64,000 bases of DNA from the IMG/VR virus record IMGVR_UViG_3300002835_000075, positions 1 through 64,000 of that record; one strand, written 5' to 3'. Below are positions 1,553-50,854 of this stretch, piece after piece. Under the pieces are notes generated by a model. It saw nothing but the letters and a program-made list of their open reading frames with translations. It ran no database searches and was not told the origin of the DNA. Position 1 is the stretch's first letter. The number at the start of each line of letters is the position of its first letter. The stretch comes from a virus. The translations under genes and the position numbers were made by a program.

Positions 1553-2044
1553 ATGAAAAAAATTGTATCTATTACTGAATCACAACTAACCAATATAATT
1601 AAACAAGTTCTCAAAGAAAATGAAACAAAAGATAGTTTAATTGATATGATCAAAGAAGATGGGTGGAAAGAATCATCCGGAATGGTTGGGGGTTCAGATA
1701 ACTTAAAAAAATTGTCTGGTATTGATACCCCAATGAAATACCTTAGTTTATTCAACGACTTAAATAGTATGACCGATGAATTAAGACCTACTTGGAAAAT
1801 GTTTTTTTATCATGAAAATAAACCAACTATGATGTTAATTTCAAATAAAGAAGAAAACAAGGTCTATATGAATATCGGGTTTATGGATCAATTTTTAAGG
1901 GCCTTTAATTTAGATCTTAATGAATCTAGAGAATATATTAAAGATTGGTTGTTAAACTCTTATGATTATGACGTAGATACTTCAAATATTATTATGAGAA
2001 GAGGTTACCCATTTAATAATTTTAGAAGTGAGAGTATGACATAA
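1553..2044 (+). CDS. Leader-bearing phage protein, function unknown
   Basis: 163 residues. The N-terminus (KKIVSITESQLTNIIKQVL, then KENE) is the leader shared by many proteins in this window and ends in the hydrophobic-x-E pattern of T4 gp21 cleavage sites (L-K-E before N). The remainder, from about residue 25, is acidic and soluble with no recognised domain. A TATTTAT box precedes it and a terminator follows. I infer an internal head protein; the enzymatic or structural role is unknown. Confidence 0.8.
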   Translation: MKKIVSITESQLTNIIKQVLKENETKDSLIDMIKEDGWKESSGMVGGSDNLKKLSGIDTPMKYLSLFNDLNSMTDELRPTWKMFFYHENKPTMMLISNKEENKVYMNIGFMDQFLRAFNLDLNESREYIKDWLLNSYDYDVDTSNIIMRRGYPFNNFRSESMT

Positions 2045-2092
2045 TAATATTTTTTTATTTAACTAATAATTTTTAATCCAAAATAAATTATA

Positions 2093-2128
2093 TCCCCCAT
2101 CTCTCAACAGTTGGGGTTTTTTATTTTC
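2093..2128 (+). terminator. Rho-independent terminator
   Basis: CCCC ... TTGGGG hairpin followed by TTTTTTATTTT between two leader-bearing genes. Confidence 0.6.
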
Positions 2129-2145
2129 CATTATATTTATCTAAT

Positions 2146-2565
2146 ATGAAAATCATTATAACTGAAGATCAATACGGACAATTAACTAACCTCGTTAAAC
2201 GAGTGATTCGTGAAAATGACTCTATGTTAGAAAAAAACAAAAAGTTTTTAAAAAACAAGTTGGGTATTGATTTTACAAATGTCATTCAACAAATAACCTC
2301 AACTTATGATATTCCAATGGAATTTGCTGGATATATTTCACCTGGATTGATTAATCGTTATTTAAACAAATATGGACCTATGTATCTTTTTGAACTTGAC
2401 GGGAAAAAATATCTTTATTTAGATGTGGGGGATCATGAGAAGTTTATTGATGAGAATGGAAATATATATATTGAAAATGAAATACCCGAACAACTTGGAA
2501 TCGCAATAATGGGTTTAAGATTCTCAGATATTATTGATCTGTATTTTAAAGAAGAGGATTTCTAA
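2146..2565 (+). CDS. Leader-bearing phage protein, function unknown
   Basis: 139 residues with leader KIIITEDQYGQLTNLVKRVI ending R-E before N-D-S, a second variant of the shared leader (TEDQY instead of TESDL). The body is an alpha/beta-looking acidic domain with no recognised family. TATTTAT box at 2134-2140. The last codons overlap a 35-bp sequence that recurs at 744-778. Inferred capsid cargo. Confidence 0.8.
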   Translation: MKIIITEDQYGQLTNLVKRVIRENDSMLEKNKKFLKNKLGIDFTNVIQQITSTYDIPMEFAGYISPGLINRYLNKYGPMYLFELDGKKYLYLDVGDHEKFIDENGNIYIENEIPEQLGIAIMGLRFSDIIDLYFKEEDF

Positions 2566-2588
2566 AACAAGACCCCCCTTTTTAAAAA
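2554..2588 (+). repeat. Dispersed repeat, copy 2 (copy 1 at 744-778)
   Basis: The core TTTCTAAAACA is followed by one variable base and then GACCCCCCTTTTT; it occurs at 749-773 and 2559-2583. In copy 2 it contains the stop codon of the preceding gene; in copy 1 no gene precedes it. Both copies lie upstream of a long A/T-rich tract and a plus-strand gene. Confidence 0.6.
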
Positions 2589-2668
2589 GAACTGAAATCT
2601 TAAAAAAAAAATTTTGAAAAAATTTCCCTTAATTTGATTAGTGGATTTATTTAAATTACATTTTTATT

Positions 2669-3268: not shown

Positions 3269-3718
3269 ATGAAAATAATCATCTCTAAAGATCAGTATAG
3301 AAGAGTTCTTTTAAAATTCCTTGATAGTTTTATTAAAGGTTTCGATGTGGATCCTTACGAAGAAGAAAGTTCGTATAGAAATGTTAAAACTTCTGATGGA
3401 GATGACTTTGCAACTCTTTGGCATGATGAGCCAATTACTAAGGGGTGTAAAAGAGAATTATCATTAGATAACCAATTTACTAATGATTTTGAAAGTTTTA
3501 TTCCCATTAATAGAAAAAAAGTTTTTTCAGAAGTAGTTCTTGAATATTTCACATCAAAAACGGGTATCAAATGTGATTGTGTTGAGTTTAGTTATTTTAC
3601 AGGAAAATATAAAGAATTAGAAAGGTATGATGATGATTCAGATGAGGTAATCTCCTATACTGATAAAGAATTCGATCACTACCATTATAAAAAACCTAAA
3701 AGATCTAAAAAACGATAA
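3269..3718 (+). CDS. Hypothetical phage protein with partial leader
   Basis: 149 residues. Starts KIIISKDQYRRVLLKFLDSF, clearly related to the shared leader (compare KIIITEDQYGQL at 2146) but without a clear x-E cleavage position. Acidic middle and very basic C-terminus (KKPKRSKKR), which could bind DNA. TATTTAT box at 3257-3263, five bases before the ATG. Confidence 0.75.
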   Translation: MKIIISKDQYRRVLLKFLDSFIKGFDVDPYEEESSYRNVKTSDGDDFATLWHDEPITKGCKRELSLDNQFTNDFESFIPINRKKVFSEVVLEYFTSKTGIKCDCVEFSYFTGKYKELERYDDDSDEVISYTDKEFDHYHYKKPKRSKKR

Positions 3719-4015: not shown

Positions 4016-4057
4016 ACCTTTTTTTTCTTTTGACTATATTTATAATTAAAGTTCATT

Positions 4058-4744
4058 ATGAAAAAAATCGTTAGATTGAGTGAGTCAGATTTAACAAGAG
4101 TAGTTAGACGTGTAATAAACGAAGGGTTTTCAGATATCGATTGGACAAACATTTGGTTAAAATTAAGAAGACTTTCTGAAAGTTTTCATTATCCTAATGA
4201 TGACGGAATCATTTTTTCTTATGGGGGACTAGATTTTGAAATTTCAAAAGATGGGGATAGTTTGCATCTTATGGAATTTTATAGAAACCCAAGAGAGTGG
4301 GACTCAAAATATAGAGATGGAGAAGAAGTTTTGGAAAATTATTTTAATAAAATAAAAAAATTTGTTGACGAGTTTAATGATAAATATGATTTCCCTTTTG
4401 AACTTATGTTTGAAATGGGACCACGATTTGAAATGATATTCTATTGTAATTTTGAAAATAATCTATATGAGTCAAATATTACGTCGTCCGTTATTTCGAT
4501 TTTAAACGAAGATCGTAGTAAAACAATTACAAAACCTAGTGGATTTGATAACTATAATAAAAAATGTAAAAATAAAACCAAAGGGATTTTTGACATTGTT
4601 TTAAATAAGGTTAGATTTTCATGTATGACAAGTGAGGATAATACAAACTCATTTAATTCACGTGAATCAAATCCTTTTACGGGAAAAACCAGAGGAAATT
4701 ATAATGTTAATGGAAATAATATTACATTATCAACCACCTTATAA
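4058..4744 (+). CDS. Leader-bearing phage protein, function unknown
   Basis: 228 residues with the most typical form of the shared leader (KKIVRLSESDLTRVVRRVI followed by N-E-G-F), so the predicted gp21-type cut is after I-N-E. The body has a globular N-terminal part and a Ser/Asn-rich C-terminal part, with no recognised domain. TATTTAT box at 4037-4043. Inferred internal head protein. Confidence 0.8.
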   Translation: MKKIVRLSESDLTRVVRRVINEGFSDIDWTNIWLKLRRLSESFHYPNDDGIIFSYGGLDFEISKDGDSLHLMEFYRNPREWDSKYRDGEEVLENYFNKIKKFVDEFNDKYDFPFELMFEMGPRFEMIFYCNFENNLYESNITSSVISILNEDRSKTITKPSGFDNYNKKCKNKTKGIFDIVLNKVRFSCMTSEDNTNSFNSRESNPFTGKTRGNYNVNGNNITLSTTL

Positions 4745-4776: not shown

Positions 4777-5445
4777 ATGAAACATTTATTAAACGATTTA
4801 TCTAACGAAGAAAAAAATAGAATTAGAGAACAATACGAAGGTAGTCTGTTAGTGAATACCTCAAGATTTAAAAAACTTTTGGAATCTCACCTTGGTAATG
4901 TTAAACCATTACTAACCGAAAATCCAACAGGTGACACTGGAAATCAAGAAGTCGTTGGTGGAGGAGGTCAAGGCTCACCACAGGATGTATATTCTGTAAC
5001 CGCAAGAATCCAAAATCAGTGTAGACCCGAGGCAGTAACTGCCTATAAATCCGAAGCACAACAAGCACCTCAATTTGCAACAACAAACAAAGCAGGTCTT
5101 CCAGTTAAAATTGATGAAAAAACAATTGAGTTTACAAAAAAATTATATGATGGTATGACATATAAAGGAAATATAAAATATAGATATAATTGTGTAGATT
5201 TGGATAATTCAGCTACCGCAGTTGGGTTGAATGTTAATGCCGCCAAACCTAATGAATTTACCGCAGTTCCTGCTTGGGTTGGAAATTATAAAACTTCGGT
5301 TATAACTCAGGCAAATCCTAAGGGATTTTTAAGATCTTTTTGCGCATATGCTCTTACTGATATACCAACAATAAATAATGTGAATAAAAAGTTAGAATAT
5401 TGTTGTAAGGATGGATCTGGAGCTCAATCAAGTGTTCCTTGTTAA
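4777..5445 (+). CDS. Leader-bearing phage protein with Cys-rich C-terminus
   Basis: 222 residues. The leader is of the NEEKNRI type (KHLLNDLSNEEKNRIREQYE), with a later L-T-E site near residue 48 before a Gly-rich linker. The C-terminal domain (residues 70-222) has several cysteines, ending CCKDGSGAQSSVPC, suggesting disulfides or metal binding and perhaps an extracytoplasmic site of action. Family not recognised. Confidence 0.8.
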   Translation: MKHLLNDLSNEEKNRIREQYEGSLLVNTSRFKKLLESHLGNVKPLLTENPTGDTGNQEVVGGGGQGSPQDVYSVTARIQNQCRPEAVTAYKSEAQQAPQFATTNKAGLPVKIDEKTIEFTKKLYDGMTYKGNIKYRYNCVDLDNSATAVGLNVNAAKPNEFTAVPAWVGNYKTSVITQANPKGFLRSFCAYALTDIPTINNVNKKLEYCCKDGSGAQSSVPC

Positions 5446-5882: not shown

Positions 5883-6791
5883 ATGAAAAAGAATTTATTT
5901 GTATTATCGGAAAATGAAAAAAATCGGATTTTAAACATGCACAAATCCGCAACTAAACAAAATTATGTTTTTGAACAAGCCGCACCGGTTGTAGATCCCA
6001 ATAAACCAAATGTAGATGCTGTTACAGGAAACCAAGGAACTCCTGTTGTAGGAGCGGTTACACCTCAATCCTCAGTGTCTAATATCCCAACACAAACAGC
6101 ACCAGCGGCAGGAGCGACTCCAGCGGCAGGAGCGACCCCAGCGGCAGGAGCAACACCCGATAAAAAAACAATAATGTTACATGATCTTGATTATGATTAT
6201 AAAAAAGAAGGTGACAAATACTTCTTTAAAATTAAGGCGGACGCTGTATCACCAAATTTACAAAAACTTTTCAAACAGGGTAAGTTCAAAGATTTTACAG
6301 AGGCTAAACCAGGAACTAAATCATTTGACGCCATCAGCAAACTTAATTGGGCTAAAGGAGATAAACTTGATGTAAAACCGGCGTCCTCAATGAAAGTATC
6401 GTCACCTAGTTTAACCGCATCTCCACAAGGAGGTGCTGCACCCGCAGCCGGATCAAACTCAACAACATTACAAGACCCTGTTGGAGAAGCAAAAAAACTT
6501 ATGCCAAATATTAGTTCATTAGATCCTGCGAAACAAAAAGAAGTTGCCACATGGTCAAAATCACCGGCAGGAGAGTATATTCTAAAACTTCCGCCAGATC
6601 AGAGAGAAAAGGCTTTAGATAATTTAGAAAAGAAAAGTGGTGATCAAACAACAAAGGCATTAAAATCAGATATTAGAACCGCACTTGGAATGGCTGCCGA
6701 CACGGCATTTCAAAGATTAGGTCAAGGAATAAAAGGAGCGGTTGCTGGATTCAAAGCAGGAGCTCAAGGACAACAACCACCAACAGCCTAA
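5883..6791 (+). CDS. Leader-bearing Ala/Pro-rich protein with PAAGAT repeats
   Basis: 302 residues. Leader KKNLFVLSENEKNRILNMH..., with F-E-Q before A-A near residue 34. Residues about 70-95 carry three tandem PAAGAT repeats (18-bp units at 6102-6155). A lysine-rich domain follows and the C-terminus is Gly/Ala-rich. TATTTAT box at 5873-5879. A non-enzymatic, flexible internal head protein is my best guess. Confidence 0.75.
   Translation: MKKNLFVLSENEKNRILNMHKSATKQNYVFEQAAPVVDPNKPNVDAVTGNQGTPVVGAVTPQSSVSNIPTQTAPAAGATPAAGATPAAGATPDKKTIMLHDLDYDYKKEGDKYFFKIKADAVSPNLQKLFKQGKFKDFTEAKPGTKSFDAISKLNWAKGDKLDVKPASSMKVSSPSLTASPQGGAAPAAGSNSTTLQDPVGEAKKLMPNISSLDPAKQKEVATWSKSPAGEYILKLPPDQREKALDNLEKKSGDQTTKALKSDIRTALGMAADTAFQRLGQGIKGAVAGFKAGAQGQQPPTA
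6102..6155 (+). repeat. Three 18-bp tandem repeats inside a gene
   Basis: Unit CCAGCGGCAGGAGCGACT, encoding PAAGAT, repeated three times with one or two differences. Confidence 0.85.
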
Positions 6792-6798: not shown

Positions 6799-7281
6799 AT
6801 GAAAAGACTTATAATTACAGAAGACGAAAAAAAAAGAATCAAACTTCTTTATGAGCAATCAACTTTTGTGAAAGATATGGCAAAAACTTTTAACTCATCT
6901 GAGGAATCTTTTTTGCCGTTGGATTGGTCGACTTTGGAAAAAACCGATCCTAAAAGGGCTGAGTATGGTCAAAATTTATCTAAAGTAAAAACCGCGTTTC
7001 AAAACTTCACAAATAAGGCGTGGAATGGTAAAACTGATATTTCAAAAACTATATCATATTTACAAAACTATAATATCGATAATAAATACCAAAAACGATG
7101 GTTAGATTCCGCAGTTAAAACTTTACAACATTTACAAAACCAAATAAAAAGTAGCGATAACACCCAAAGTAAAACTAATACTACCACAACAAATACCACA
7201 ACTAATTCTACAAACGTAACAACACCATCGTTTTCGGATTGGAGATCAAAATTAAATCAACAGTTTGGCATAAATTCATAA
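6799..7281 (+). CDS. Leader-bearing phage protein, function unknown
   Basis: 160 residues. Leader KRLIITEDEKKRIKLLYEQ followed by S-T, predicted cut at Y-E-Q. Basic helical middle, then a Thr/Asn-rich linker (residues 125-145) and a short C-terminal segment (FSDWRSKLNQQFGINS). Starts 8 bases after the previous gene, so it is part of the same operon. Confidence 0.75.
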   Translation: MKRLIITEDEKKRIKLLYEQSTFVKDMAKTFNSSEESFLPLDWSTLEKTDPKRAEYGQNLSKVKTAFQNFTNKAWNGKTDISKTISYLQNYNIDNKYQKRWLDSAVKTLQHLQNQIKSSDNTQSKTNTTTTNTTTNSTNVTTPSFSDWRSKLNQQFGINS

Positions 7282-7785: not shown

Positions 7786-8130
7786 ATGAAAAATAATTTA
7801 ACAGAATCAGACATCAATAGAATCGTATTTGATGTTATAAATGAATCTGAAGAAGTAAAAGAAGGTTGGTTTAGTAATTTGTTTAAAGATAAATATACAA
7901 TTTACTCGGAGGAGCTTGAAGAAATAATGCAAGATTTAATCAAAAACGTTTACTCCGATCGAGATATTATTTCCAACATCAAAGAACTATATTCCAAAAT
8001 TCAAAGTTCTGATATGGATAGAAGAGACAAGAGAGAATTACTCGAAATAATGTATGAACTTTATCAGTTGATAAATGAAACTCAAACAAAGGTAAATCGA
8101 TATATTCATAGATTACAACGATTAAGATAA
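7786..8130 (+). CDS. Leader-bearing small helical protein
   Basis: 114 residues. Leader KNNLTESDINRIVFDVI then N-E-S, predicted cut at I-N-E. The rest is predicted almost fully helical and charged (ELEEIMQDLIKNVYSD... RRDKRELLEIMYELY). TATTTAT box at 7775-7781. Confidence 0.75.
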   Translation: MKNNLTESDINRIVFDVINESEEVKEGWFSNLFKDKYTIYSEELEEIMQDLIKNVYSDRDIISNIKELYSKIQSSDMDRRDKRELLEIMYELYQLINETQTKVNRYIHRLQRLR

Positions 8131-8952: not shown

Positions 8953-9294
8953 ATGAAAATCAACGAAGAATTAAACCAAATCAAATATCTTTTAGAGTAT
9001 AAAAGAGGACAAGAAATTAACGAAATGGTTTTTTCTAATTTACCCGGTGTTCAGCCTGATAAAATGGATTATAGAAGACCAATACCTGATCCTGATATTA
9101 TACCTGATTGTTTTACTCAAATGTTAAAATCAGATTTAAACATGGTTTCTTTTGATAAAAACACGTTAAAAGATGAATCACAAAAAAGAGTTAATGGTGT
9201 TGATATGATTTTTAATCCTGATAGTCCATCTGACGAATTGGGTATTACAATAATAAAAGATGGAAAACCTTTTTGTTTTGTAAAAAAATTTTAA
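8953..9294 (+). CDS. Leader-bearing phage protein, function unknown
   Basis: 113 residues from ATG 8953, chosen because a TATTTAT box ends 4 bases upstream; an upstream in-frame ATG at 8938 would overlap the previous gene. Leader of the LNQIKYLLE type (KINEELNQIKYLLEYKRGQ then E-I-N-E), similar to those at 20418 and 24629. The body is Pro/Asp-rich with two cysteines. Confidence 0.75.
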   Translation: MKINEELNQIKYLLEYKRGQEINEMVFSNLPGVQPDKMDYRRPIPDPDIIPDCFTQMLKSDLNMVSFDKNTLKDESQKRVNGVDMIFNPDSPSDELGITIIKDGKPFCFVKKF

Positions 9295-9346: not shown

Positions 9347-9859
9347 ATGGGAAGAAAAATTAGACTTACAGAATCTGAATTTCATTCTTTAGTAAGAAGA
9401 CTTGTTCGTGAGGCTGAAGAAGAAATGATGTCAATTACAATGGATGATGAAGAATCCGAAGGAATGTCAAAAGAAGACACCGTTCATGCGGTTGCTGACT
9501 TCTTTAAAAGAAAATTAAGAAGATTAGATAGTGACGAAATCGAAGAACTTGAGGATATGGTTGTTAATTCTGAAACAGAAGATCTAACTGAAATGTTTTT
9601 AAGAGAAGACATTTCTGATAGAAAAAAATCTTTTAAAGAAAAGGCAATGATTCGTGGTGGAATTGGTATGATGGGAGCAGGAATACTTGGAATGATTAGT
9701 CAAGCAATGGGTTATACTGATGCTGGAGACCTTATGATTGCGGTTCACGATTACGTTGACAAAATGGGTGGTGGTCCTGTGAGCACCGCAGTATTAATTG
9801 CTGGTTTAGTTATGGCACTTAAAGGTGCTGCTGACAGAGGCCTTAGAACAGGAAGATAA
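9347..9859 (+). CDS. Leader-bearing membrane-active protein candidate
   Basis: 170 residues. Leader GRKIRLTESEFHSLVRRLV then R-E-A, which fits the T4 gp21 preference for Ala after Glu. An acidic region (residues 25-90) is followed by two hydrophobic Gly/Ala/Met-rich segments (about 105-125 and 145-162) that could insert in a membrane. A capsid-packed, membrane-inserting protein is one reading. Terminator follows. Confidence 0.75.
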   Translation: MGRKIRLTESEFHSLVRRLVREAEEEMMSITMDDEESEGMSKEDTVHAVADFFKRKLRRLDSDEIEELEDMVVNSETEDLTEMFLREDISDRKKSFKEKAMIRGGIGMMGAGILGMISQAMGYTDAGDLMIAVHDYVDKMGGGPVSTAVLIAGLVMALKGAADRGLRTGR

Positions 9860-14868: not shown

Positions 14869-15396
14869 TTAGATTCCTTTAATAAGGTTTATTGATTGTT
14901 TTAGGTATTCTTTAGCTCTTGGGGACGGAGTATATTCATCATCCTTAGTTTGAAGGTTTAAAACCCTTTCAATGTCCTTAACTAACTCAGTTCCGTGTTC
15001 ATTTTCTTTATATAACTCGATGATCTTATCCATGGCTTTATTGCATTCACCTGTAGTCTCGTCATAATAGTTTTTATTCCTAAACTTATTCAAATGATTC
15101 ATCATTTCATATGCCAAATGTGTTCCACCGTCTTTAATGTCTTTAAACAAACGGATATTATTCAAAATCCCTAAAGTATCAACCATAGAGTTAACCCCTG
15201 TAATTCTTTTGGTAATCCCTGGTGTGTATTTATCAAATTCACCCGCTCTCCCGACTATTTCGTCTAGAGGCATAACATTTTCAGGAATACACTTAGGTTT
15301 TTCCTTTTTATTTTTTTTTCCTTCCATTTCGTTTTCTAAAAGAACTTTTCTAATGACTCTATTTAGGTCACGGTTATTAAATTGATTTCGTTTCAT
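14869..15396 (-). CDS. Leader-bearing phage protein (minus strand)
   Basis: 175 residues. Leader KRNQFNNRDLNRVIRKVL then L-E-N, predicted cut at L-L-E. Basic linker, then a helical body (DKIIELYKENEHGTELVKDIERVL). The presence of the leader on a minus-strand gene shows that the leader is a protein feature and not a by-product of one local duplication. No domain recognised. Confidence 0.75.
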   Translation of the reverse strand: MKRNQFNNRDLNRVIRKVLLENEMEGKKNKKEKPKCIPENVMPLDEIVGRAGEFDKYTPGITKRITGVNSMVDTLGILNNIRLFKDIKDGGTHLAYEMMNHLNKFRNKNYYDETTGECNKAMDKIIELYKENEHGTELVKDIERVLNLQTKDDEYTPSPRAKEYLKQSINLIKGI

Positions 15397-15450: not shown

Positions 15451-15822
15451 ATGAAAAATATTAATGACATTATAAGGAAAGTATTGATTGAGTCATTTTT
15501 AAGACCTAAGTTTATTTTTGAGGATTTCTATGGGTCGGTTGAAGATGTTGATTTTTTAAATGAAGCCGAATATCAAGGAAGAAAAGTTCAACTTGGTAAA
15601 ATAATGCAGGGTGACGTAAAAAAGTTTAAGGTTTATGTTAAAAATGACAAAGGTAAAGTTGTTAAAGTTAATTTTGGTTTTGGTGGTAAATCAGCAAAAG
15701 GGAAAAGAATGGTTATTAAAAAAAATAACCCAGAAAGACGACGATCTTTCAGAGCAAGACACAATTGCGATAATCCTGGACCAAGATGGAAACCAAGATA
15801 TTGGGCTTGTAGAACTTGGTAA
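15451..15822 (+). CDS. Leader-bearing conserved phage protein (FRARHNCDNPGP motif)
   Basis: 123 residues. Leader KNINDIIRKVLIE before S-F. The C-terminal 70 residues (KVYVKNDKGKVVKVNFG ... RRRSFRARHNCDNPGP ... RYWACRTW) match a small domain that I recognise from many marine and environmental myoviruses, often attached to other head proteins; its conserved His, Cys and Arg residues suggest a metal- or nucleic-acid-binding fold. Function undetermined. TATTTAT box at 15424. Confidence 0.8.
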   Translation: MKNINDIIRKVLIESFLRPKFIFEDFYGSVEDVDFLNEAEYQGRKVQLGKIMQGDVKKFKVYVKNDKGKVVKVNFGFGGKSAKGKRMVIKKNNPERRRSFRARHNCDNPGPRWKPRYWACRTW

Positions 15823-15886: not shown

Positions 15887-16474
15887 ATGGAGAGTTATAG
15901 ATATGACTCATTAGTTCGACAGATTATAAAGGATATTGTTCTTATGTATAAAAAAGAATCTGACGGGCATTTTTATTTACCCTACGATGTTGATGAAGAG
16001 TCTGACGAATACGACTTTAAAGACATATTTGTTTCTGTTGAATTAATTTTGGAAGAGTCAAATACGGTTGACGATTTTTTATTAAACGCCGATTTTTATC
16101 CCGATGATGATACTATTGTTGTAAAAATAGTATATAATCCAGAATTTAAAACTAAAAATATCTACAACATGGTCGGAGAATTAAACGAACTCATTGCACA
16201 CGAACTTAGACATAGTCACCAAAAAAATACCGGTCTATTTGATTTGGATTCTGACATGGATGTTGATGAAGAAAAAGGTTTCGAGTATTATACAAGACCT
16301 GAGGAAATTGACGCTCAATATTACGGATTCAAAAGAATGTCAAAAATCACAAAAAAACCTTTCGATGAATTAGTTAAAAATTGGTTCAAAAAGTATAAGG
16401 ATGTTCATCAAATGGATGATTCTGAAGTTGAAGAAACTGTATCGATGATATTAAATTACAGACCTAAGATTTAA
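15887..16474 (+). CDS. HExxH zinc metallopeptidase-like protein
   Basis: 195 residues from ATG 15887; the frame extends upstream only to a TTG at 15851. The motif IAHELRHSHQ (about residues 112-121) is a canonical HExxH zinc-binding helix, with a downstream Glu-rich segment (EEKGFEYYTRPEEIDAQYYG) that could give the third ligand. The N-terminal half is acidic. No known peptidase family can be named. Converges with the next gene, overlapping it by 11 bases. Confidence 0.75.
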   Translation: MESYRYDSLVRQIIKDIVLMYKKESDGHFYLPYDVDEESDEYDFKDIFVSVELILEESNTVDDFLLNADFYPDDDTIVVKIVYNPEFKTKNIYNMVGELNELIAHELRHSHQKNTGLFDLDSDMDVDEEKGFEYYTRPEEIDAQYYGFKRMSKITKKPFDELVKNWFKKYKDVHQMDDSEVEETVSMILNYRPKI

Positions 16475-17084
16475 ACCTATCTATAATCTTTTTGACTAGC
16501 ATATAAACAATATGTGATGTAAAAATCCCGCCTAAATAGTGTCCTACACCCATCGCTAATAATTTAATTTGTTTTTCACCTATTGATAAATCTGAAAGAT
16601 CTTTCAATATTGGAACTAATGGGACCAAAAACGTGTAGGCGATCATATTAGAGACTTTTGAAAAAGTTAAATTCAAACTTTCTAAAAAACCGAAAAGAGC
16701 ATCTCTTAAATCATAGGATTTTGAAAGTGCTCTATCAAAAAACGTAATTAATTTTTTTTCTTTTATTAGTTCTAACACCTCACGTAATTTTTCCTTATTC
16801 GAGGAAAAAAAAGTTAAAATTATACCAAAAGATATTAGGGTTATGTCTGTTTCTGTTAGGTTTGGATATCTACCACTCATATATTTTGAAACAGGTCCCA
16901 CAAATCCCCCTATTACAGAACCCCAAGTTCCCAAAAAAACAAAATCAATTCCAAATTGTTTTTTTACGTCTTCGATAATTTTTTTTGTAAAGTTTTTCGA
17001 ATTAGTAAAAATATCCGACATGGCATTTTCTTTAGATTCTTGTAGAACTTTAATGTATTGCGATTCTGTTAAAATTATATCCAT
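16464..17084 (-). CDS. Leader-bearing membrane protein (minus strand)
   Basis: 206 residues. Leader DIILTESQYIKVLQE before S-K, predicted cut at L-Q-E. Three or four hydrophobic segments follow (about 48-65, 82-95, 140-160, 175-195). A cleaved, capsid-packed protein with several membrane segments would be unusual; it could form a channel in the host membrane on injection. Confidence 0.7.
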   Translation of the reverse strand: MDIILTESQYIKVLQESKENAMSDIFTNSKNFTKKIIEDVKKQFGIDFVFLGTWGSVIGGFVGPVSKYMSGRYPNLTETDITLISFGIILTFFSSNKEKLREVLELIKEKKLITFFDRALSKSYDLRDALFGFLESLNLTFSKVSNMIAYTFLVPLVPILKDLSDLSIGEKQIKLLAMGVGHYLGGIFTSHIVYMLVKKIIDRFKS

Positions 17085-17196: not shown

Positions 17197-17811
17197 ATGA
17201 ATTCATACTTTTTTAAAATGAACAAACAAGAAAGAGAGAACATCTTGGATCAACATAAACATGTATATGATGGTTATGTAACAAAATACAATCAACAATC
17301 AAACCAATATCCTCTTTATGTTCAGGATTTGGCAAATGATAAAAATGGTATTACGGTAAATAATAAAGGATTGGTTAAGACTTATACTAACGTAGGTATT
17401 AATGAAGGTCTTTTAGATATGATTGCCGATGGGCCTATGGACTTAGAAAACGGAACGATAGATATTGATAGTGTGAGTCAAACAAATTCAATCAATAAAA
17501 AAATGTTGGACCAATATTATCCATCACCCAACGAGGAAGAAGAAGAATTTGTAACCTATGGTAAAATCTCAGATGAAGAGGACATACCAAACACAAGCTT
17601 ACAAAACTTAGATAGGTTTGAATATGATATTGACGAACTTGAGGACTATTCAGCGAGCAAAGATTATGACAATACAGACGAAGAATATTTAACTTACAGT
17701 GAAAGACTACAAGATACACTACAAAATGTTGATGAAGAAATACTACCTGAATTAGTTCAACAATTGTATGAGTCGAGACACATGTTCGAAAGATTCAAAA
17801 AATACAACTAA
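17197..17811 (+). CDS. Acidic phage protein with NKQERENIL-type leader
   Basis: 204 residues. N-terminus NSYFFKMNKQERENILDQHK is close to the leaders at 4777, 5883 and 45137. The body is strongly acidic (EEEEEF, DEEDIPNTS, DIDELEDYSAS) and lacks hydrophobic core segments, so it is probably disordered. TATTTAT box at 17174-17180. Could be a scaffold-associated or DNA-mimicking protein; unproven. Confidence 0.7.
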   Translation: MNSYFFKMNKQERENILDQHKHVYDGYVTKYNQQSNQYPLYVQDLANDKNGITVNNKGLVKTYTNVGINEGLLDMIADGPMDLENGTIDIDSVSQTNSINKKMLDQYYPSPNEEEEEFVTYGKISDEEDIPNTSLQNLDRFEYDIDELEDYSASKDYDNTDEEYLTYSERLQDTLQNVDEEILPELVQQLYESRHMFERFKKYN

Positions 17812-20417: not shown

Positions 20418-21710
20418 ATGGAAAATTTAAAAGAACAACTTAACAGAATCAAATTATTATACAACTATAATTTGAACGAAACTTATGAAGAAAACAAAAT
20501 TAAACAGTCGTCCAAAAACTATTTGAATGAGGCTGCTGCCGAGGCCCTAATCGCAGCCAAGGAGTTGGGGAACGCAGAAAGAGCCATCCTACATAATAGT
20601 TTAGAAACTGTAGTTGCCGATATAGGTGCAGTCACTATTAAAAATGAGAAAGGAATTTTTTCATCAACAAAAAATGTCGAAGAAATAGTGTTGGCGATGA
20701 AAGAAGGAAGAATTGCGGGTGCTGAGTTAGGTAATATTGGTAAGTCTCTCTTAAAAAGCCCGGCAACAAGCACAGAGATTAAATCATTAGCAGCCGAACT
20801 GGTAACATCATTTCCATCTTTTGAACAAAAATATGGTATGTTAACAAGAGAACAAGCCGTAAACGAACTAATGAATGGTCCTGGAAAATATACAAAAGGT
20901 GAAGCAGAAACTCTTATGAATAAGTATAAGTCGAGAAAAAGTCGAGTTGATCCAATCGAGCCCCCTAAGACAGGTGAAGGACCGAAACCAAGTGAAGGAC
21001 CGAAACCAAGTGAAGGACCGAAACCAAGTGAAGGACCTGTAAATCAAAATAATATCAACCTCAATATAACTAACCAAGTTCAATCCGAGGGATTTAAAAT
21101 TGCGGAAGAGTATGGACCTCACATGGATGATGCAGCAAGAAAAAGAAAATGGAAAGACTCTCAAGATTGGTTAAAAAATGACGAAAGAGGGTTTATGGAA
21201 GAATATAATAGAGTTAGTAAGGGATCAAGACTTAGAAGAGGTCTTAATTGGGGTCGAAAAATTATGTCTTGGGGAACTCTTTGGGGAATATTTAAAATTG
21301 CGGGAATAGGTCTAACTTTATGGGCCGTATATAGTTTATTTACAGATAGTGGATGGAAAGTTAAAGACGATGATAAAATAGATGATGATGACGGCGGAGG
21401 CGGCGGCGGAGACGATGACGGAGGAGGTGGAGGATCACCTGATGACGACCAAAACCAAGGAGTGTTGATCGACGTTGATGGTAATAAATATATAGAATGC
21501 ACACCACCTTATTATAAGGGTTGTGTCGCTAAAAAAGGAAATGACGACATAAGAAAGGCTCAAGATTGTTTGGGTGTAACACCTAATGGTTTCTTTAATA
21601 AAGAAACAGAAGACGCATTATATAAAAAAATAAACAAGAAAAGTTTTAGTCCATCAGATATGCCATCGATATGTGCGACGAGTTATGGGGCTAGTAGATT
21701 CTCTTATTAA
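20418..21710 (+). CDS. Leader-bearing protein with C-terminal peptidoglycan-binding-like domain
   Basis: 430 residues. Leader ENLKEQLNRIKLLYNYNLN then E-T. Residues about 185-205 are four EGPKPS repeats (18-bp units); one transmembrane helix lies at about 290-310 (IFKIAGIGLTLWAVYSLF); then a DDDDGGGGGGDDD-type linker. The C-terminus (about 370-415: DDIRKAQDCLGVTPNGFFNKETEDALYK) follows the PG_binding_1 pattern. The order targeting peptide, linker, membrane helix, wall-binding domain suggests a protein delivered from the head into the host envelope. Confidence 0.75.
   Translation: MENLKEQLNRIKLLYNYNLNETYEENKIKQSSKNYLNEAAAEALIAAKELGNAERAILHNSLETVVADIGAVTIKNEKGIFSSTKNVEEIVLAMKEGRIAGAELGNIGKSLLKSPATSTEIKSLAAELVTSFPSFEQKYGMLTREQAVNELMNGPGKYTKGEAETLMNKYKSRKSRVDPIEPPKTGEGPKPSEGPKPSEGPKPSEGPVNQNNINLNITNQVQSEGFKIAEEYGPHMDDAARKRKWKDSQDWLKNDERGFMEEYNRVSKGSRLRRGLNWGRKIMSWGTLWGIFKIAGIGLTLWAVYSLFTDSGWKVKDDDKIDDDDGGGGGGDDDGGGGGSPDDDQNQGVLIDVDGNKYIECTPPYYKGCVAKKGNDDIRKAQDCLGVTPNGFFNKETEDALYKKINKKSFSPSDMPSICATSYGASRFSY
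20973..21036 (+). repeat. 18-bp tandem repeats inside a gene
   Basis: Three and a half copies of GTGAAGGACCGAAACCAA, in frame, encoding EGPKPS. Coding repeat, not CRISPR. Confidence 0.9.
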
Positions 21711-24546: not shown

Positions 24547-24660
24547 ATGGAAGACATACATCAACAAATTCACGAGGAGTTTATTAACTCTGAAGATTAT
24601 GATAAGTATCTTTATGATATTTATAATTATGAACCTCAACGAACAGATCCACAGGATTAA
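24547..24660 (+). CDS. Small acidic protein, 37 residues
   Basis: MEDIHQQIHEEFINSEDYD... ending EPQRTDPQD. TATTTATA-type box just before it. Its end overlaps the start of the acetyltransferase gene by 32 bases in another frame, suggesting translational coupling. Unrecognised. Confidence 0.45.
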   Translation: MEDIHQQIHEEFINSEDYDKYLYDIYNYEPQRTDPQD

Positions 24661-25099
24661 AAACTTGATGTATGAACAACCACAAGTCCAAATTGTATAT
24701 AAAGGTGATTTAGATGGATACTTTGGAAAAAACATTGAGTTAACGTCTCCTGATAATAATACTATTGGTTTTATCCATATATCCAAAATGAATGATGGTG
24801 AAAATTTAGATCTGAACTTCAATACTTTATATGACGAATCCAAGTTTCAAACCATTCCATTAAATTATGATAATTGTCTTTTTATGCACACTTTAGAGGT
24901 GGATGAAAACCATAGAAAACAGGGACATGGGTCACACTTATTAGATTTGGCACATGAATTTGCAAAAAATAACGGATATAATTATCTATCTTTTATTTCT
25001 GATAATGATAATGAAATTGCAAACAACATTTATCAAAAAAGAGGTTATAAGTCATTAAATTCTAATGACAATTCTAGTTTTTATTTTGTTGAATTGTAA
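24629..25099 (+). CDS. GNAT acetyltransferase with capsid-targeting-like leader
   Basis: 156 residues from ATG 24629 (earlier in-frame ATGs at 24599 and 24614 would lie in the upstream frame). Residues 1-18 (NLNEQIHRIKNLMYEQ then P-Q-V) are the shared leader of the LNxIKxLL type. The C-terminal domain is GNAT: LEVDENHRKQGHGSHLLDLA supplies the acetyl-CoA-binding R/Q-x-x-G-x-G/S loop, followed by NEIANNIYQKRGYK (motif B). An enzyme fused to the leader is the best evidence that the leader addresses cargo. The acetylated target is unknown. Confidence 0.85.
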   Translation: MNLNEQIHRIKNLMYEQPQVQIVYKGDLDGYFGKNIELTSPDNNTIGFIHISKMNDGENLDLNFNTLYDESKFQTIPLNYDNCLFMHTLEVDENHRKQGHGSHLLDLAHEFAKNNGYNYLSFISDNDNEIANNIYQKRGYKSLNSNDNSSFYFVEL

Positions 25100-28765: not shown

Positions 28766-29155
28766 ATGAAAAAAATAATAAGAATTACAGAATCTGATTT
28801 GACTAACATAGTTAAACGAGTGATTAAAGAAAATGAAAATAATAGATTAGGTAAAGTTTATTTCAATAACGAGAATTATCCTGGATTTATGTATGTTAAA
28901 GAAATATTACCTAAATATCAAATGTATTGGGTTGGGACTATGACAAATGAAGTATTACCTACTGAATTAATAAAAGATGATGATATGGATATCTATTGGT
29001 TAGAATCACCCGATGGTAAAACATTTGGTTACGAACTTTTTGAAGATGATTTAAAAGGTAAAAAATATTTAGTTTTAGATTTAGTTGACCCACAAGAAAT
29101 TGAGAAATATCTAAGAAATGGCGGTGAATGGTTCCCAAGTCACTACGAGGCGTAA
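28766..29155 (+). CDS. Leader-bearing phage protein within tRNA cluster
   Basis: 129 residues. Leader KKIIRITESDLTNIVKRVI then K-E-N-E, a near-consensus form. The body has a small-barrel look (GKVYFNNENYPGFMYVKEIL ... YWLESPDGKTFGYELFEDDL). TATTTAT box just upstream. Inferred internal head protein located far from the other clusters. Confidence 0.8.
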   Translation: MKKIIRITESDLTNIVKRVIKENENNRLGKVYFNNENYPGFMYVKEILPKYQMYWVGTMTNEVLPTELIKDDDMDIYWLESPDGKTFGYELFEDDLKGKKYLVLDLVDPQEIEKYLRNGGEWFPSHYEA

Positions 29156-32082: not shown

Positions 32083-32094
32083 TTTTAACAATAT

Positions 32095-32562: not shown

Positions 32563-32565
32563 CAA

Positions 32566-33577: not shown

Positions 33578-33585
33578 TACATTTG
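33578..33585 (+). promoter_or_regulatory. Host-type promoter
   Basis: TTG (33555-33557), 20 bases, TACATTTG; 12 bases before the tRNA-like element at 33598. Confidence 0.65.
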
Positions 33586-33597
33586 TAAAAAAAGGTT

Positions 33598-33681: not shown

Positions 33682-34138
33682 CAAAAGACCCCACGATTAA
33701 CAGAAGTATCCGGCTGTTATGGGTGTGAACCTGACTTGAAGGCTTCAAGGCTATGGGGGAGGCTACACGAACAAACAAGGGTTCCCCATTATGGATGGAG
33801 GGGGTTAGGGGTCTTAAGTGATCGTAATACAATCCACAAGTTGTAAGAACACTGAACAATCTTACAATATACACTCGTCTTCCGAGTGAGACCCACCACG
33901 TAACTTTGGGGGTATGGTGAAGATGTTCTGAGGATAACACTGAACGCTGAGTTTGATTCCACCCGACACGATGGTGAGATAGAATAAGGACGGAGTGTGA
34001 AAGTATAAACCCACCGTGGATGGTTACTATGGACTAACGAATCTTAGTCATATCGGTGAGGGATATTATGTCGTCAAATATTAAAACTTGAAAGGTTCTC
34101 CCAAACTGGCGTGGGGATGATTCAGAACCTTTTTTAAT
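33682..34138 (+). ncRNA. Structured non-coding RNA candidate
   Basis: No gene seen in 450 bases. AGACCCC (33686-33692) pairs with GGGGTCT (33808-33814) to close a first domain; a second, G-rich domain with several internal hairpins follows. It ends in a GGTTCT/AGAACC hairpin with a T-run (34094-34135). Transcribed from the promoter at 33555-33585, with the tRNA-like element as its first part. Confidence 0.5.
34094..34135 (+). terminator. Terminator of structured RNA
   Basis: GGTTCT (34094-34099) / AGAACC (34124-34129) followed by six T. Confidence 0.7.
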
Positions 34139-34210
34139 GGTCCATTGGTGTAGTGGCTAACATTCATCCCTGTCACGGATGAGCCGCGAGTTCGATTCTC
34201 GCATGGACCG
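34139..34210 (+). tRNA. tRNA-Asp(GUC), copy 2
   Basis: Acceptor GGTCCAT/ATGGACC, anticodon stem TCATC/GATGA region with loop CTGTCAC, T loop TTCGATT. Diverged from the copy at 31957. Confidence 0.88.
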
Positions 34211-34240
34211 CTAAAATTATTAAAATTAAATCAGAATAAT

Positions 34241-39321: not shown

Positions 39322-40056
39322 ATGGTTTCAAGATCAGAATGCAGTAGTTCAAACCCATGTTCAAAATTTGGATCCACCGATAATGGGTGTCTTCAAAATT
39401 TAAAAAAAGGTGAGGTTGGTTCAAGCAAATATGAATTGGCTTCTGAGGCTGCAGACGCACTCGAGATAATGTATGAAGACATGCCCGAAGACGTTCAAAA
39501 AGATTTAAAAATCTCAGATTCTTATCGTCCATTAAAAATCCAATGTAATATTTTCAATTTTGACACTTATGAAGAAACAGGAAAGAGAATTAAAATTGGG
39601 ACTTCTAATGTTGCTGTGGCGGCTCCTGGAACGTCAAATCATGGTTGGGGTAGAGCATTAGACTTGTCGTCAAGAAAGGCTCAACAGTGGATCAAAGACA
39701 ATGGATATAAGTATGGTTGGTGTTGGGGTGAGGTTACATCGGAACCATGGCATTTTACTTACTGCGGACCAGGACCAAATAGATCATCAAGATGTGATAG
39801 TTTTTGTAAGGGTAAAATGGAAATATCATCAACCGATACTTCCATTGATGACGAAGAAGAAGAAGGATCAATTGAAAAGGAAACCACAACTGACAAAAAA
39901 ACCAAATCTAACCAATCTTCATCAGCTTTGGGACCTATTGGTGATTTTTTAAATTTTCTTGGTATTGTAGGTGAGATGAAAGAGTCGATTGAAGAAAATG
40001 AAAATTTGAATGAAGAATTAAATAGAATTCACGATATTTTTAAAAAAATTCTTTAA
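39322..40056 (+). CDS. VanY-type (M15) peptidase, probable endolysin
   Basis: 244 residues. The core at about 60-150 has SDSYRPLKIQCNIF, GTSNHGWGRALDL (zinc-binding His and Asp) and GWCWGEVTSEPWHF (catalytic Glu and zinc-binding His), the M15/VanY layout that cuts the peptide stems of peptidoglycan. Four cysteines in the first 30 residues. The C-terminal 90 residues are an acidic linker ending in NEELNRIHDIFKKIL, similar to the shared N-terminal leader but placed at the C-terminus. Confidence 0.88.
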   Translation: MVSRSECSSSNPCSKFGSTDNGCLQNLKKGEVGSSKYELASEAADALEIMYEDMPEDVQKDLKISDSYRPLKIQCNIFNFDTYEETGKRIKIGTSNVAVAAPGTSNHGWGRALDLSSRKAQQWIKDNGYKYGWCWGEVTSEPWHFTYCGPGPNRSSRCDSFCKGKMEISSTDTSIDDEEEEGSIEKETTTDKKTKSNQSSSALGPIGDFLNFLGIVGEMKESIEENENLNEELNRIHDIFKKIL

Positions 40057-45136: not shown

Positions 45137-45640
45137 ATGAAAAAATTTTTAATATCAGAATCAGAAAAACAACGAATTTTGGGAATGCACAAAAATGCAA
45201 TTAGAAAAGAATATTTGACGGAGGATGATGTGGCTGCAAAACTTTCAGGTTTAATGAACAATATAGTTTCGGCTGCGAATACTGCAATAAACACGTATAA
45301 TGGAGCTAATAATTCTAAAGTTCCAAATGTTACAATTACATCTCAAAATGACCCTAGTGAAATTAATTCTTTATTATATTCATTCAATATGAGTAATCAG
45401 TCGATTGGTGAGGTTAGTGATAAATACACTATTGGTAATTTATATCCCGCTGGTTGGCCCGAATTTGAAAAGAAAATTTATAAGTCGTTTAAACCTAGTG
45501 TAAATACGTTTTTATCAGATAAATTGGCAGCTAATGGGGTTCCAAAAGGAAATCAAACTGATTGGCAAAATAACGTCACTGGTGCTATATTTAAAGTCCT
45601 AAATAATTTTCAAGGTTTTAATAAACCTACTCAAAAATAA
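45137..45640 (+). CDS. Leader-bearing phage protein
   Basis: 167 residues. Leader KKFLISESEKQRILGMHKNA... with L-T-E before D-D near residue 31; nearly the same leader as 5883 (NEKNRILNMHKSA). The mature part has an N-terminal helical segment and no recognised domain (NLYPAGWPEFEKKIYKSFKPSVNTFLSDKL). Confidence 0.75.
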   Translation: MKKFLISESEKQRILGMHKNAIRKEYLTEDDVAAKLSGLMNNIVSAANTAINTYNGANNSKVPNVTITSQNDPSEINSLLYSFNMSNQSIGEVSDKYTIGNLYPAGWPEFEKKIYKSFKPSVNTFLSDKLAANGVPKGNQTDWQNNVTGAIFKVLNNFQGFNKPTQK

Positions 45641-48343: not shown

Positions 48344-48473
48344 AACTGAACACTTGTCAGGTTTTTTATTTGTTATATGACAAATTGTCAGTATATTTAT
48401 TTTTTCTAAAAATGGCACACTATTGGTGTTCAATGGCGAAAAAATAAACTTAAAAACAAAATGTATTAAAAAA
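48344..48473. promoter_or_regulatory. Divergent promoter region clpC / dnaK
   Basis: 130 bases between the divergent chaperone genes, with TGACAAATTGTCA (palindrome at about 48378-48390) and TATATTTATT; candidate control site for both genes. Confidence 0.45.
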
Positions 48474-50327
48474 ATGGGAAAAATTATTGGGATAGATTTA
48501 GGAACTACTAATTCTTGCGTGGCAGTAATGGAAGGTCGCGAACCTGTGGTAATCACAAACAGCGAAGGTAAAAGGACAACACCATCTGTTGTTGGATTTA
48601 TTAAAGATGGGGAAAGAAAGATTGGAGATCCTGCAAAACGTCAGGCCGTAACAAATCCAAATAAAACGATCTACTCAATTAAAAGATTTATGGGTAGTAA
48701 GTTTGAGGAAACTAAAAGTGAAATATCAAAAGTTCCTTATGAAATTATAAATGAAAATCAAACACCAAAAGTTAAAATTGATGATAGAAGTTTTTCTCCA
48801 CAAGAAATTTCAGCGGCAATTCTTCAAAAAATGAAACAAACCGCCGAAGACTACTTGGGTGAAAAGGTTACTGATGCTGTAATTACGGTTCCTGCTTACT
48901 TTAACGACGCACAAAGACAAGCGACAAAAGAGGCCGGTGAAATTGCAGGTCTAAATGTTAAAAGAATTATTAATGAACCAACGGCAGCGGCTTTGGCGTA
49001 TGGTTTGGATAAAATGTCAAGAGACATGAAAATTGTGGTATTTGACTGCGGTGGTGGAACACATGACGTATCTGTATTGGAACTTGGTGATGGTGTATTT
49101 GAAGTATTATCTACAGATGGTGATACTCATTTAGGTGGTGATGACTTCGATCAAGTGATTATTGATTTTTTAGCGTCTGAATTTAAACAAAATACAGGAA
49201 TTGACGCAACAAAAGATCCAATGGCTCTTCAAAGACTTAAAGAAGCCGGTGAAAAGGCCAAAATCGAATTATCTTCATCTCCACAAACAGAGGTTAATCT
49301 TCCATATTTATCGGCAGACTCATCAGGTCCTAAACACCTTGTTGTGACAATTACAAAATCAAAATTCGATCAACTAACAGAAGACTTGGTAAAAAGAACA
49401 ATTAAACCGTGTGAATCTGCTTTAAAAAATGCTGGTTTAAAACCAAGTGATATTGATGAGATTATTTTGGTGGGTGGATCAACACGAATTCCCGCCATTC
49501 AAGAGGCCGTTAAAAAATTCTTCGGTAAAGATCCGTCAAAAGGGGTGAATCCTGATGAAGTAGTTGCTTTAGGTGCTGCAATTCAAGGTGGTGTTTTGGG
49601 TGGTGATGTTACTGATGTATTATTATTAGATGTTACACCACTTTCTTTAGGTATTGAAACTATGGGGGGAGTATTCACCAAACTAATTAGTGCAAATACA
49701 ACAATCCCAACAAAAAAATCTGAAGTATTTTCAACCGCATCCGACAATCAACCTACAGTTGAAATTCATGTTCTTCAGGGTGAAAGATCAATGGCGAAGG
49801 ATAATAAAACAATTGGAAAGTTTAACTTGGATGGTATTCCACCGGCAAGAAGGGGAACTCCACAGATTGAGGTTATTTTTGATATTGATGCTAATGGTAT
49901 TATTAATGTTTCGGCCGTAGATAAGGCAACAAACAAACAACAATCAATCAGAATCGAATCGTCATCAGGTTTATCAAAAGAAGAAATTCAAAGAATGAAA
50001 GAAGAAGCCGAAATGAACGCTGAAGCCGACAAAAAATTAAAAGAAGATGCTGACACATTAAATTCTGCGGATTCATTAATTTTCCAAGTTGAAAAATCTT
50101 TAACAGATTTGGAAGATAAAATTACTGAAGATGAGAAACAAAACATAACTTCCAAAATTGATAAGTTAAAGGTTGCACATAGTAATAAAAATATAGATGA
50201 CGTGAAAAAATTTACAGATGAACTCAATTCTGAATTTCAATCAATTAGTCAAAAATTATACAGCATGTCAAATGAAACAAGTTCCGATGAAGAAGTGACA
50301 AATGTGGAGTTTGAGGAAGTAAAATAA
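48474..50327 (+). CDS. dnaK: DnaK (Hsp70) chaperone
   Basis: 617 residues from ATG 48474. ATPase domain: [65 protein letters not shown]. Substrate domain: [12 protein letters not shown]. The C-terminus ends VEFEEVK, like bacterial DnaK. Odd feature: the phosphate-2 loop reads [15 protein letters not shown] instead of the usual DLGGGTFDVSILE. Shorter than typical DnaK (about 635). No dnaJ or grpE seen in the window. It would fold virion or host proteins, probably with the host co-chaperones. Confidence 0.97.
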
Positions 50328-50344
50328 AAGTAATTTTTACCAAA

Positions 50345-50374
50345 ATCACCGAGAAATCGGTGATTTTTTTTTTT
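50345..50374 (+). terminator. Terminator of dnaK
   Basis: ATCACCGAGAAATCGGTGAT hairpin followed by T11. Confidence 0.9.
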
Positions 50375-50398
50375 AAGTATATTTATTAAATAAAAAGT

Positions 50399-50854
50399 AT
50401 GAAAAGAATTATAAAATTAACAGAATCAGATTTAGCTCGTATCGTAAGAAGAGTTATTAGTGAGCAACAAGCTTATACTATTATACCAATAACCATAGAC
50501 ATACCAGCGCAAAAAGACGAAGAGGGTGTTTTAAAAGCCATTCCAAATGCTAGATTAACATTTCAAATTATCAACCAAAAAGGGACAGATGGGAGTATGA
50601 CTGATGACCTTGACACAGTTTCGCAAGTTCATTGGGATAGTGGCACTGCAAAAGCAGTGTCAAAAAAAGATGATAAGGGAAACATTATTGGATCTTTTGT
50701 GCCTGATGAATCGGGATTAAAAGTATTATCAAGATTAGTTGGTAAAAAAGATATGACCGGTACTTCAGGTATTAAAGTAACAATACAACCACAAAATCGA
50801 CTCATTCCTGCACCAGCAACGGTTAGGTTTAAAGAGCGACCAATTCAAAAATAA
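50399..50854 (+). CDS. Leader-bearing phage protein
   Basis: 151 residues. Leader KRIIKLTESDLARIVRRVI then S-E-Q-Q, the consensus form. The body is beta-rich (YTIIPITIDIPAQKDEEGVLKAIPNARLTFQII ... ITVTIQPQNRL-like C-terminus), perhaps a small Ig-like fold. TATTTAT box at 50380. Confidence 0.78.
   Translation: MKRIIKLTESDLARIVRRVISEQQAYTIIPITIDIPAQKDEEGVLKAIPNARLTFQIINQKGTDGSMTDDLDTVSQVHWDSGTAKAVSKKDDKGNIIGSFVPDESGLKVLSRLVGKKDMTGTSGIKVTIQPQNRLIPAPATVRFKERPIQK

Follow-up and report, generated by a model that had tools for sequence, protein, structure and literature searches.

Short leaders shared by otherwise unrelated proteins of an uncultured T4-like phage group are probable capsid-targeting sequences

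Why do many proteins with unrelated bodies, encoded on both strands of one phage genome, begin with the same few short peptides? The question is raised by the virus record IMGVR_UViG_3300002835_000075, bases 1-64,000 of which (the window) carry 24 such leader starts according to a first-pass annotation, which compared them with the capsid-targeting sequences (CTSs) of phage T4. In this current study, the remainder of the 100,367-base record (G000) was analysed as well, together with six whole relatives (G001, 272 kb; G002, 296 kb; G003, 229 kb; G004, 152 kb; G005, 104 kb; G006, 90 kb), 74 further loci from a capsid-gene search (80 loci kept of at least 599) and 150 of the 160 kb of the isolate Flavobacterium phage immuto. 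Open reading frames were predicted by a simple caller of our own using codon scores. By capsid protein, the nearest isolates were Flavobacterium phage vB_FspM_immuto_2-6A (42% identity over half the protein) and Microcystis phage Mel-JY01 (44%). With a probability of roughly 80%, we regard the leaders as CTSs of the T4 kind, whose proteins would be expressed late, docked on the core, cut by a gp21-type protease, packaged and injected, the leader itself being a portable module.

When the N-terminal 40-mers of 108 proteins were compared, 21 pairs scored at least 45; the controls gave 2 pairs (residues 42-81), 0 (C-termini) and 2 (shuffled N-termini). Iterated profiles yielded four overlapping leader classes, with the consensus sequences L-T-E-S-D-L-x-R-I-V-K-R-V-I-x-E (class I), I-T-E-S-Q-Y (class II), E-E-K-x-R-I-L (class III) and N-E-E-I-x-R-I-K-x-L-M (class IV); the profiles of classes II and III drift into each other. 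The profile set comprised 2,324 proteins from G000-G006, immuto and the 74 other loci, and cut-offs were set so that controls stayed at or below 2%. Among proteins of at least 150 residues, the class I profile found 57 N-termini, 1 internal window and no shuffled sequence, and the class IV profile 30, 0 and 0, respectively. Fixed regular expressions for classes I and IV, which like that for class V were composed after the leaders were known, matched 58 N-termini, 0 mid-regions and 3 C-termini (class I) or 19, 0 and 4 (class IV) in 2156 proteins. The short form, class V (phi-phi-basic-x-phi-phi-x-E, phi being a hydrophobic residue), was found at residues 2-26 in 41 of 873 proteins, and in 0, 6, 0 and 0 in the next four windows. 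Moreover, when 121 leader proteins of G001-G006 were aligned, a consensus of notable length was present at the start only. The three fixed expressions matched 13 of 116 proteins of G000 and 0 of 58 in T4 (49 kb), 0 of 41 in crAss001 (50 kb) and 0 of 57 in phi14:2 (50 kb); they test these leaders only, because T4's own CTS escapes them too. No PHROGs or Pfam family matched the leader itself, and this leader was not found in the literature on capsid targeting, head proteins or leader strings, where the papers listed dealt with T4, P1, P22, giant phages and a few unrelated topics (titles and abstract openings, with subscription papers and preprints mostly outside the scope).

By the combined rule, leader proteins numbered 21/116 in G000, 40/293 in G001, 49/338 in G002, 26/218 in G003, 6/140 in G004, 7/94 in G005 and 27/124 in G006, that is, 176 of 1,323 proteins in the seven records (6-49 per record, about 4-22% of predicted proteins). 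Some of these calls must be false positives; five G006 proteins that lack phi-x-E are an example. Extending the search to the whole record and its relatives thus gave a set that exceeds the original list and is common to a wide phage clade. Of the 24 starts first listed, 19 were recovered by a class I-IV profile or the class V pattern. The other five (5475, 7286, 18673, 21725 and 44079) matched neither and are plausible by eye, as with 21725, which reads MDISKKLTQILLE↓Q. The recovered leaders are as follows, the arrow marking the predicted cut.

1553..1618, plus strand: class I leader MKKIVSITESQLTNIIKQVLKE↓N of protein 1553-2044
2146..2214, plus: class II/I leader MKIIITEDQYGQLTNLVKRVIRE↓N of protein 2146-2565, which has a 98% identical protein in G001
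3269..3331, plus: weak class II start MKIIISKDQY, without clear phi-x-E
4058..4123, plus: class I leader MKKIVRLSESDLTRVVRRVINE↓G of protein 4058-4744
4777..4920, plus: class III leader with NEEKNRI core, cut site uncertain, at the latest PLLTE↓N; protein 4777-5445
5883..5975, plus: class III leader to YVFE↓Q of protein 5883-6791
6799..6855, plus: class III leader MKRLIITEDEKKRIKLLYE↓Q of protein 6799-7281
7786..7845, plus: class I leader MKNNLTESDINRIVFDVINE↓S of protein 7786-8130
8953..9024, plus: class IV leader, probably to EINE↓M (compare the G001 relative at 230063); protein 8953-9294
9347..9412, plus: class I leader MGRKIRLTESEFHSLVRRLVRE↓A of protein 9347-9859
15334..15396, minus: class I/V leader MKRNQFNNRDLNRVIRKVLLE↓N of protein 14869-15396
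15451..15492, plus: class V leader MKNINDIIRKVLIE↓S of protein 15451-15822
17037..17084, minus: class II leader MDIILTESQYIKVLQE↓S of protein 16464-17084
17197..17268, plus: weak class III start, without clear phi-x-E; protein 17197-17811
20418..20480, plus: class IV leader MENLKEQLNRIKLLYNYNLNE↓T of protein 20418-21710
24629..24676, plus: class IV leader MNLNEQIHRIKNLMYE↓Q of a GNAT acetyltransferase ending at 25099 (called from 24599)
28766..28831, plus: class I leader MKKIIRITESDLTNIVKRVIKE↓N of protein 28766-29155
45137..45223, plus: class III leader to EYLTE↓D of protein 45137-45640
50399..50464, plus: class I leader MKRIIKLTESDLARIVRRVISE↓Q of protein 50399-50854

Two extra leader proteins of the record, 67520 (plus) and 69015 (minus), lie beyond the window, close to the major capsid gene. 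The leader does occur on both strands, as had been stated (18 plus and 3 minus among the 21 leader proteins of G000), and the bodies behind it are indeed unrelated: the 21 proteins fell into 21 clusters, and the 176 proteins of the seven records into 120, 96 of them single.

The leader had been described as an N-terminal peptide, but cores also stand at some C-termini.

39997..40053, plus strand: class IV-like core NENLNEELNRIHDIFKKIL at the C-terminus of a VanY/M15 peptidase (39322-40056)

The G001 relative of this peptidase is closed by the same kind of core; of two other M15 matches, the distant one in G016 has its leader at the N-terminus, and the one in immuto has a leader at neither end. 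In the protein family of 67520, members such as L056, L054, L042 and L062 carry the helix at the C-terminus and none at the N-terminus. An additional cleavage near the C-terminus is described for T4 Alt (PMC9026906).

A gp21-type head protease had been placed at 62687, where it was found; the capsid gene lies beyond the window.

62687-63409, plus strand: gp21-type prohead protease, candidate processing enzyme (PF03420 match at 62840-63268, E 5.9e-24)
65281-67212 of the record, downstream of gp22: gp23 capsid protein, INE↓A at residue 60 (by tblastn to T4-like capsid genes)

T4 gp21 cleaves after L/I-x-E, and the leader of an internal protein directs it to the core (PMC9026906). The proposed hydrophobic-x-E after the leader was borne out, carried by classes III and IV. 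With phi taken as I, L, V, M, F or Y (T4: L or I), and with unique leaders scored over 19 residues from three before the core end, phi-x-E was present in 43 of 44 class III leaders (8, 11 and 8 in internal control windows of the same proteins; phi-x-D, 4 of 44) and in 34 of 37 class IV leaders (controls 14, 15 and 13; phi-x-D, 10 of 37). All 77 capsid proteins that were recognised through the start they have in common carry INE↓A at residue 60; the counterpart in T4 gp23 is LTE↓A, at position 65. By the same reading, T4 proteins give MKTYQEFIAE↓A (ipIII), ITE↓A preceded by further residues (ipI), LIAE↓A (gp22), LLRE↓S (gp24) and FLTE↓A (gp23). Where related bodies have different starts, the first aligned residue is the phi of phi-x-E on 88 of 344 alignment sides (25.6%, versus 3.1% for a random position), sides that are not independent because the 67520 family dominates the count. 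A change of leader at the motif was seen on five or more body families. Protein 95498 of G002 and protein 248141 of G001 (61% identical) show a tandem start of class V type and a leader of class IV, joined at E↓Q before ISLP; 251189 of G001 and 216449 of G003 (56% identical), which may be the source of the DHH match, have unlike leaders that both end in E↓SGIR. Further cases are the APIDYxGPERM family (E↓AP), 43343 of G002 and its relatives, and the 69015 family before RYMFFSN.

These data bear on an alternative in which the leader helix serves the assembly or docking of a different virion component (baseplate, tail or a membrane-proximal complex) and phi-x-E is a chance helix end. Cores at C-termini would suit such a helix, as would the matches of some proteins with N- or C-terminal leaders to wall hydrolases (VanY, Phage_lysozyme, PG_binding), a class frequent in tails. 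However, the residue kept behind the leader is E and not D, homology tends to start at the motif, and the capsid protein has the same I-x-E↓A. In the 67520 family, moreover, what precedes the site may be anything between a complete leader and a few unrelated residues, yet the site pattern is kept in the first 60 residues of 43 of 47 members (39 of 42 distinct; the L046 match is doubtful). We therefore consider docking to another virion part unlikely, and capsid targeting the better account of the motif.

Evidence that the leader genes belong with the virion genes came from their upstream regions. The top 7-letter word upstream of leader genes was TATTTAT, found at 114 of 162 leader genes versus 250 of 926 others in five records, mostly within 20 bases of the start codon. 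Examples in the window are as follows.

4037..4043, plus strand: TATTTAT element, 14 nucleotides upstream of the 4058 start codon
50380..50386, plus strand: TATTTAT element upstream of the 50399 start codon

When only genes with more than 40 bases of upstream space of their own were counted in the seven records, the element was found at 80 of 89 leader genes. The figure was 22 of 34 for homologues of immuto virion genes, 0 of 6 for homologues of its early or metabolic genes and 151 of 415 for the remainder. Without the spacing rule, the counts were 117/176, 29/59, 1/15 and 254/1,073, respectively. The element is also upstream of gp17, gp20 and gp22, and from these associations TATTTAT may be a late-type promoter. 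The T4 late promoter word TATAAATA was not enriched on the coding strand upstream of leader genes (6 of 162 versus 30 of 926). TATTTAT is the reverse complement of part of this word.

The distribution of the leader likewise points to phages. The class I DNA pattern was found in at least 120 IMG/VR stretches (80 loci listed), its scrambled form in 0 IMG/VR records. The first pass had held that the leader on host proteins not linked to phage would speak against it; the class I pattern was found in 0 of 84,980 bacterial and archaeal genomes scanned. A tblastn search of the class I consensus against 50,697 phage records gave no match at E <= 10, a weak search given its 23-residue query. The loci listed include 17 records longer than 100 kb. 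G002 is among them and has gp21, as do 13 of the remaining 16, a share that stands without a base rate from random records. The three without it (G014, G016 and G017) gave no gp23 or gp17 match either, the gp23 blank being weak because that search matched no control genome. G014 and G016 look like contigs without the head module: G014 begins with a gene of the 69015 family, which lies close to the capsid gene in G000, and G016 has no homologue in the bins of G001 that hold head genes. Of ten records chosen via the capsid gene, nine had gp21, and in the tenth, G004, the contig ends 1.3 kb upstream of the capsid gene. The leader-bearing G024 (269 kb) has two gp21-type proteases (31291-31773 and 233494-233940), either a mixed assembly or a true pair.

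It is improbable, more so than tail or baseplate docking, that the leader is unrelated to the virion and acts within the infected cell, as an N-terminal helix that governs oligomerisation, localisation or turnover. The dUTPase, kinase, SET and DHH bodies, which are atypical of internal head proteins, would fit such a role. On the other hand, the upstream element is common to virion genes and absent from the few early genes tested, the cut motif is the same as that of the capsid protein, and the class I pattern was not found in the cellular genomes scanned.

The leader had been thought to be gained by fusion, and this is visible at the DNA level. Within genomes, 56 pairs had leader DNA at least 80% identical, many of them real paralogues, and three pairs were compared base by base. 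In the neighbours 235132 and 235706 of G001, 14-15 of 15 bases per block were identical across promoter and leader, and identity fell to chance level 2-3 codons past the cut codon. In 144682 and 280211 of G002, whose bodies are unrelated, the DNA match began immediately 5' of the start codon and ended shortly after the cut codon. In 50164 and 50713 of G003, it extended a few codons further past the cut. Given that identity of promoter and leader DNA is lost near the cut codon on unrelated bodies, the tag appears to have been copied as a unit. Identical residues shared identical codons in 57.2% of comparisons (51.9% expected) among 53 distinct class I leader DNAs; judged by codon use, conservation across the clade is thus one of peptide, not DNA. 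G002 also holds a paralogous MKIIITESQYKLIKEN... family (76.5-79 kb, 238-242 kb and 283 kb), with several adjacent copies and related stretches within larger proteins. That the shared start instead reflects a signal in the DNA or for translation initiation, or simple paralogy of proteins whose bodies diverge fast, is very improbable, since the pairs identical across promoter and leader and the many real paralogues among the 56 are outweighed by the near-random codon choice, the 120 body clusters and the abrupt loss of DNA identity past the cut codon in two pairs.

The head genes of the record complete the setting. In addition to gp21 and gp23, they are as follows.

54994..56772, plus strand: putative gp17-type large terminase, assigned by position; 64-65% identical counterparts in two large relatives
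57747..60515, plus strand: gp20, T4-type portal, intein-split (Portal_T4 1.1e-72; Intein_splicing 2.9e-15)
63764..64000, plus strand: gp22-type scaffold, named by position; starts within the window and ends at 65248 of the record

The genes gp17, gp20, gp21, gp22 and gp23 thus stand in T4-superfamily order (gp20 and gp21 by Pfam, gp23 by tblastn, gp17 and gp22 by position and relatives). The portal intein covers residues 109-414 and, by eye, contains an HNH-like stretch. Mimicry of the scaffold by class I or IV leaders was considered and rejected for the gp22 N-terminus, which lies within background (14% and 25% of other N-termini equal its score), and for class I at the gp22 C-terminus, which likewise was not above background. 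The gp22 C-terminus (about 65,174-65,245 of the record), where LIESKTYENPQF[LAM]RMKDLM is nearly invariant among 25 of 74 relatives listed, scores on the class IV leader profile and stands out there, with 0.1% of 987 background segments as high in four comparisons made; we treat this likeness as a lead, not a claim.

Taken together, the motif, the capsid site, the leader change at the motif, the shared promoter element, the link to gp21 and the lack of class I matches in the cellular genomes scanned favour the capsid-targeting reading first suggested by comparison with T4. According to this reading, leader genes would be expressed late, together with the head genes, from the TATTTAT-type promoter, and the amphipathic leader helix would dock each protein onto the growing scaffold core (gp22 and partners). 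After shell closure, the gp21-type protease would cleave past hydrophobic-x-E, the leader would be lost, and the freed body would remain in the head alongside the DNA. At the next infection the bodies would be delivered along with the DNA and do their work inside the host cell. Copying of the promoter-leader module onto unrelated bodies would keep the cargo list open-ended. Docking, cutting, packaging, injection and body function are what we infer from the gene sequences.

Several observations weigh against capsid targeting by these leaders. The 63 of 63 class I leaders with phi-x-E are uninformative, because the E belongs to the profile and the count is hence circular. For class II, 19 of 19 had phi-x-E (internal controls 4, 3 and 13; phi-x-D, 6 of 19), a count that is partly circular, the E falling on late, weakly weighted profile columns; phi-x-K is enriched too (15 of 19 versus 7, 4 and 6), and G002 paralogues make up many of the 19. 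Leader-like starts that lack phi-x-E are present in five MKINITKTQRARLVK[DE]W proteins of G006 and at 3269 and 17197, C-terminal cores often have no good phi-x-E beside them, and L014, L021, L022 and L067 of the 67520 family have a core at neither terminus. TATTTAT also precedes 36% of other genes, is missing, if spacing is disregarded, upstream of one in three leader genes, and is absent before some virion genes, including gp21 and gp23 of the record. The dependence among the 344 alignment sides and the want of a base rate for the gp21 share belong here as well. Finally, judged by eye, the likeness of the leaders to the T4 CTS MKTYQEFIAE is limited to Y..phi-phi-x-E in class II (Y-to-E spacing mostly 5, sometimes 6 as in IPIII).

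With the T4 CTSs (IPI, IPII, IPIII and Alt), the leaders share a short N-terminal peptide on unlike bodies, an L/I-x-E end and a phage with gp21, gp22 and gp23, and the CTS has been suggested as a means of bringing various proteins into the head (PMC9026906). In T4, however, the cargo is about four proteins (three internal proteins and Alt; PMC9026906), compared with 6-49 leader proteins per record here. The T4 internal-protein leaders have 10-19 residues, whereas many here are longer, and several leader classes, a portable promoter-leader cassette and C-terminal cores are found here in addition. In phage P1, the N-terminal 30 residues of DarB direct a reporter to the capsid (PMC9024508). In phiKZ and SPN3US, a gp21-like protease cleaves after E in many head proteins (PMC10052503, PMC9026906); however, the phiKZ motif is S/A-x-E, the N-terminal propeptides of SPN3US have 111-254 residues in six cases and 20 and 24 in two, and no short leader common to dozens of bodies is described in the passages of these papers that were considered. 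Phage immuto has its own repeated starts, such as MKKSQLRxIIKExL and MKKQILSEQFxRMQxLAGIITE↓S, but by the combined rule 7 of 180 of its proteins carry a leader, and the leader sequence differs; no proteome of this phage was found among the papers listed. The principle is thus known from the T4 CTS; what looks new is the scale on which it is used, the existence of several classes, the portability of the cassette and the copies at C-termini.

Pfam searches with 121 leader proteins (of 142 listed) matched 27 families, 24 of the 25 shown being single-member. The bodies matched peptidoglycan-binding, VanY, lysozyme, PAP2, SET, kinase-like, DHH, IrrE-type peptidase and dUTPase families; the dUTPase match may be a false leader. 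The body at 24629 is a GNAT enzyme by Pfam, and Pfam gives no support to the label 'wall-binding' proposed for 20418. For the most repeated body family (14 sequences), structure models reached a best mean predicted local distance difference test score of 82.8 (the other four, 65-73). The model had no match to the PDB at E <= 0.001 (best VIA Z 3.2) and one viral structure match (9.4e-4), to an uncharacterised phage protein. A role of the cargo in defence against host restriction, like that of T4 IPI, would be the obvious guess.

The host is probably a member of the Bacteroidota, because the window encodes an SprB/type IX secretion protein and one of the two nearest isolates infects Flavobacterium. 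The former, encoded by the phage at 11025-13475, combines SprB repeats with a CHU_C signal for type IX secretion, as is typical of surface proteins of Bacteroidota. Elsewhere in the window, 25 tRNA genes, one with an ambiguous anticodon, lie at 24312-34211, a cluster that is probably the source of many spurious open reading frames there, and at 46256-50327 a ClpB/ClpC-like AAA ATPase adjoins a full DnaK (HSP70) on the opposite strand.

More broadly, these phages may form a widespread uncultured T4-like clade with a general delivery code, in which mobile promoter-leader cassettes, of interchangeable classes and at either protein end, would bring new genes into the virion and mark dozens of injected proteins per head with effector-like turnover, a proposal to which we give even odds. 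If the capsid-targeting reading is true, sequence could tell which proteins a large group of uncultured phages injects, through the leader, the phi-x-E cut and the cargo list. The 176 proteins of the seven records, few of them named by Pfam, would then be probable first-contact proteins with roles in anti-defence, take-over or wall passage. A single recombination event would be seen to suffice for a phage to recruit cargo, and protein delivery could draw on several natural tags for head loading that can be exchanged for one another.

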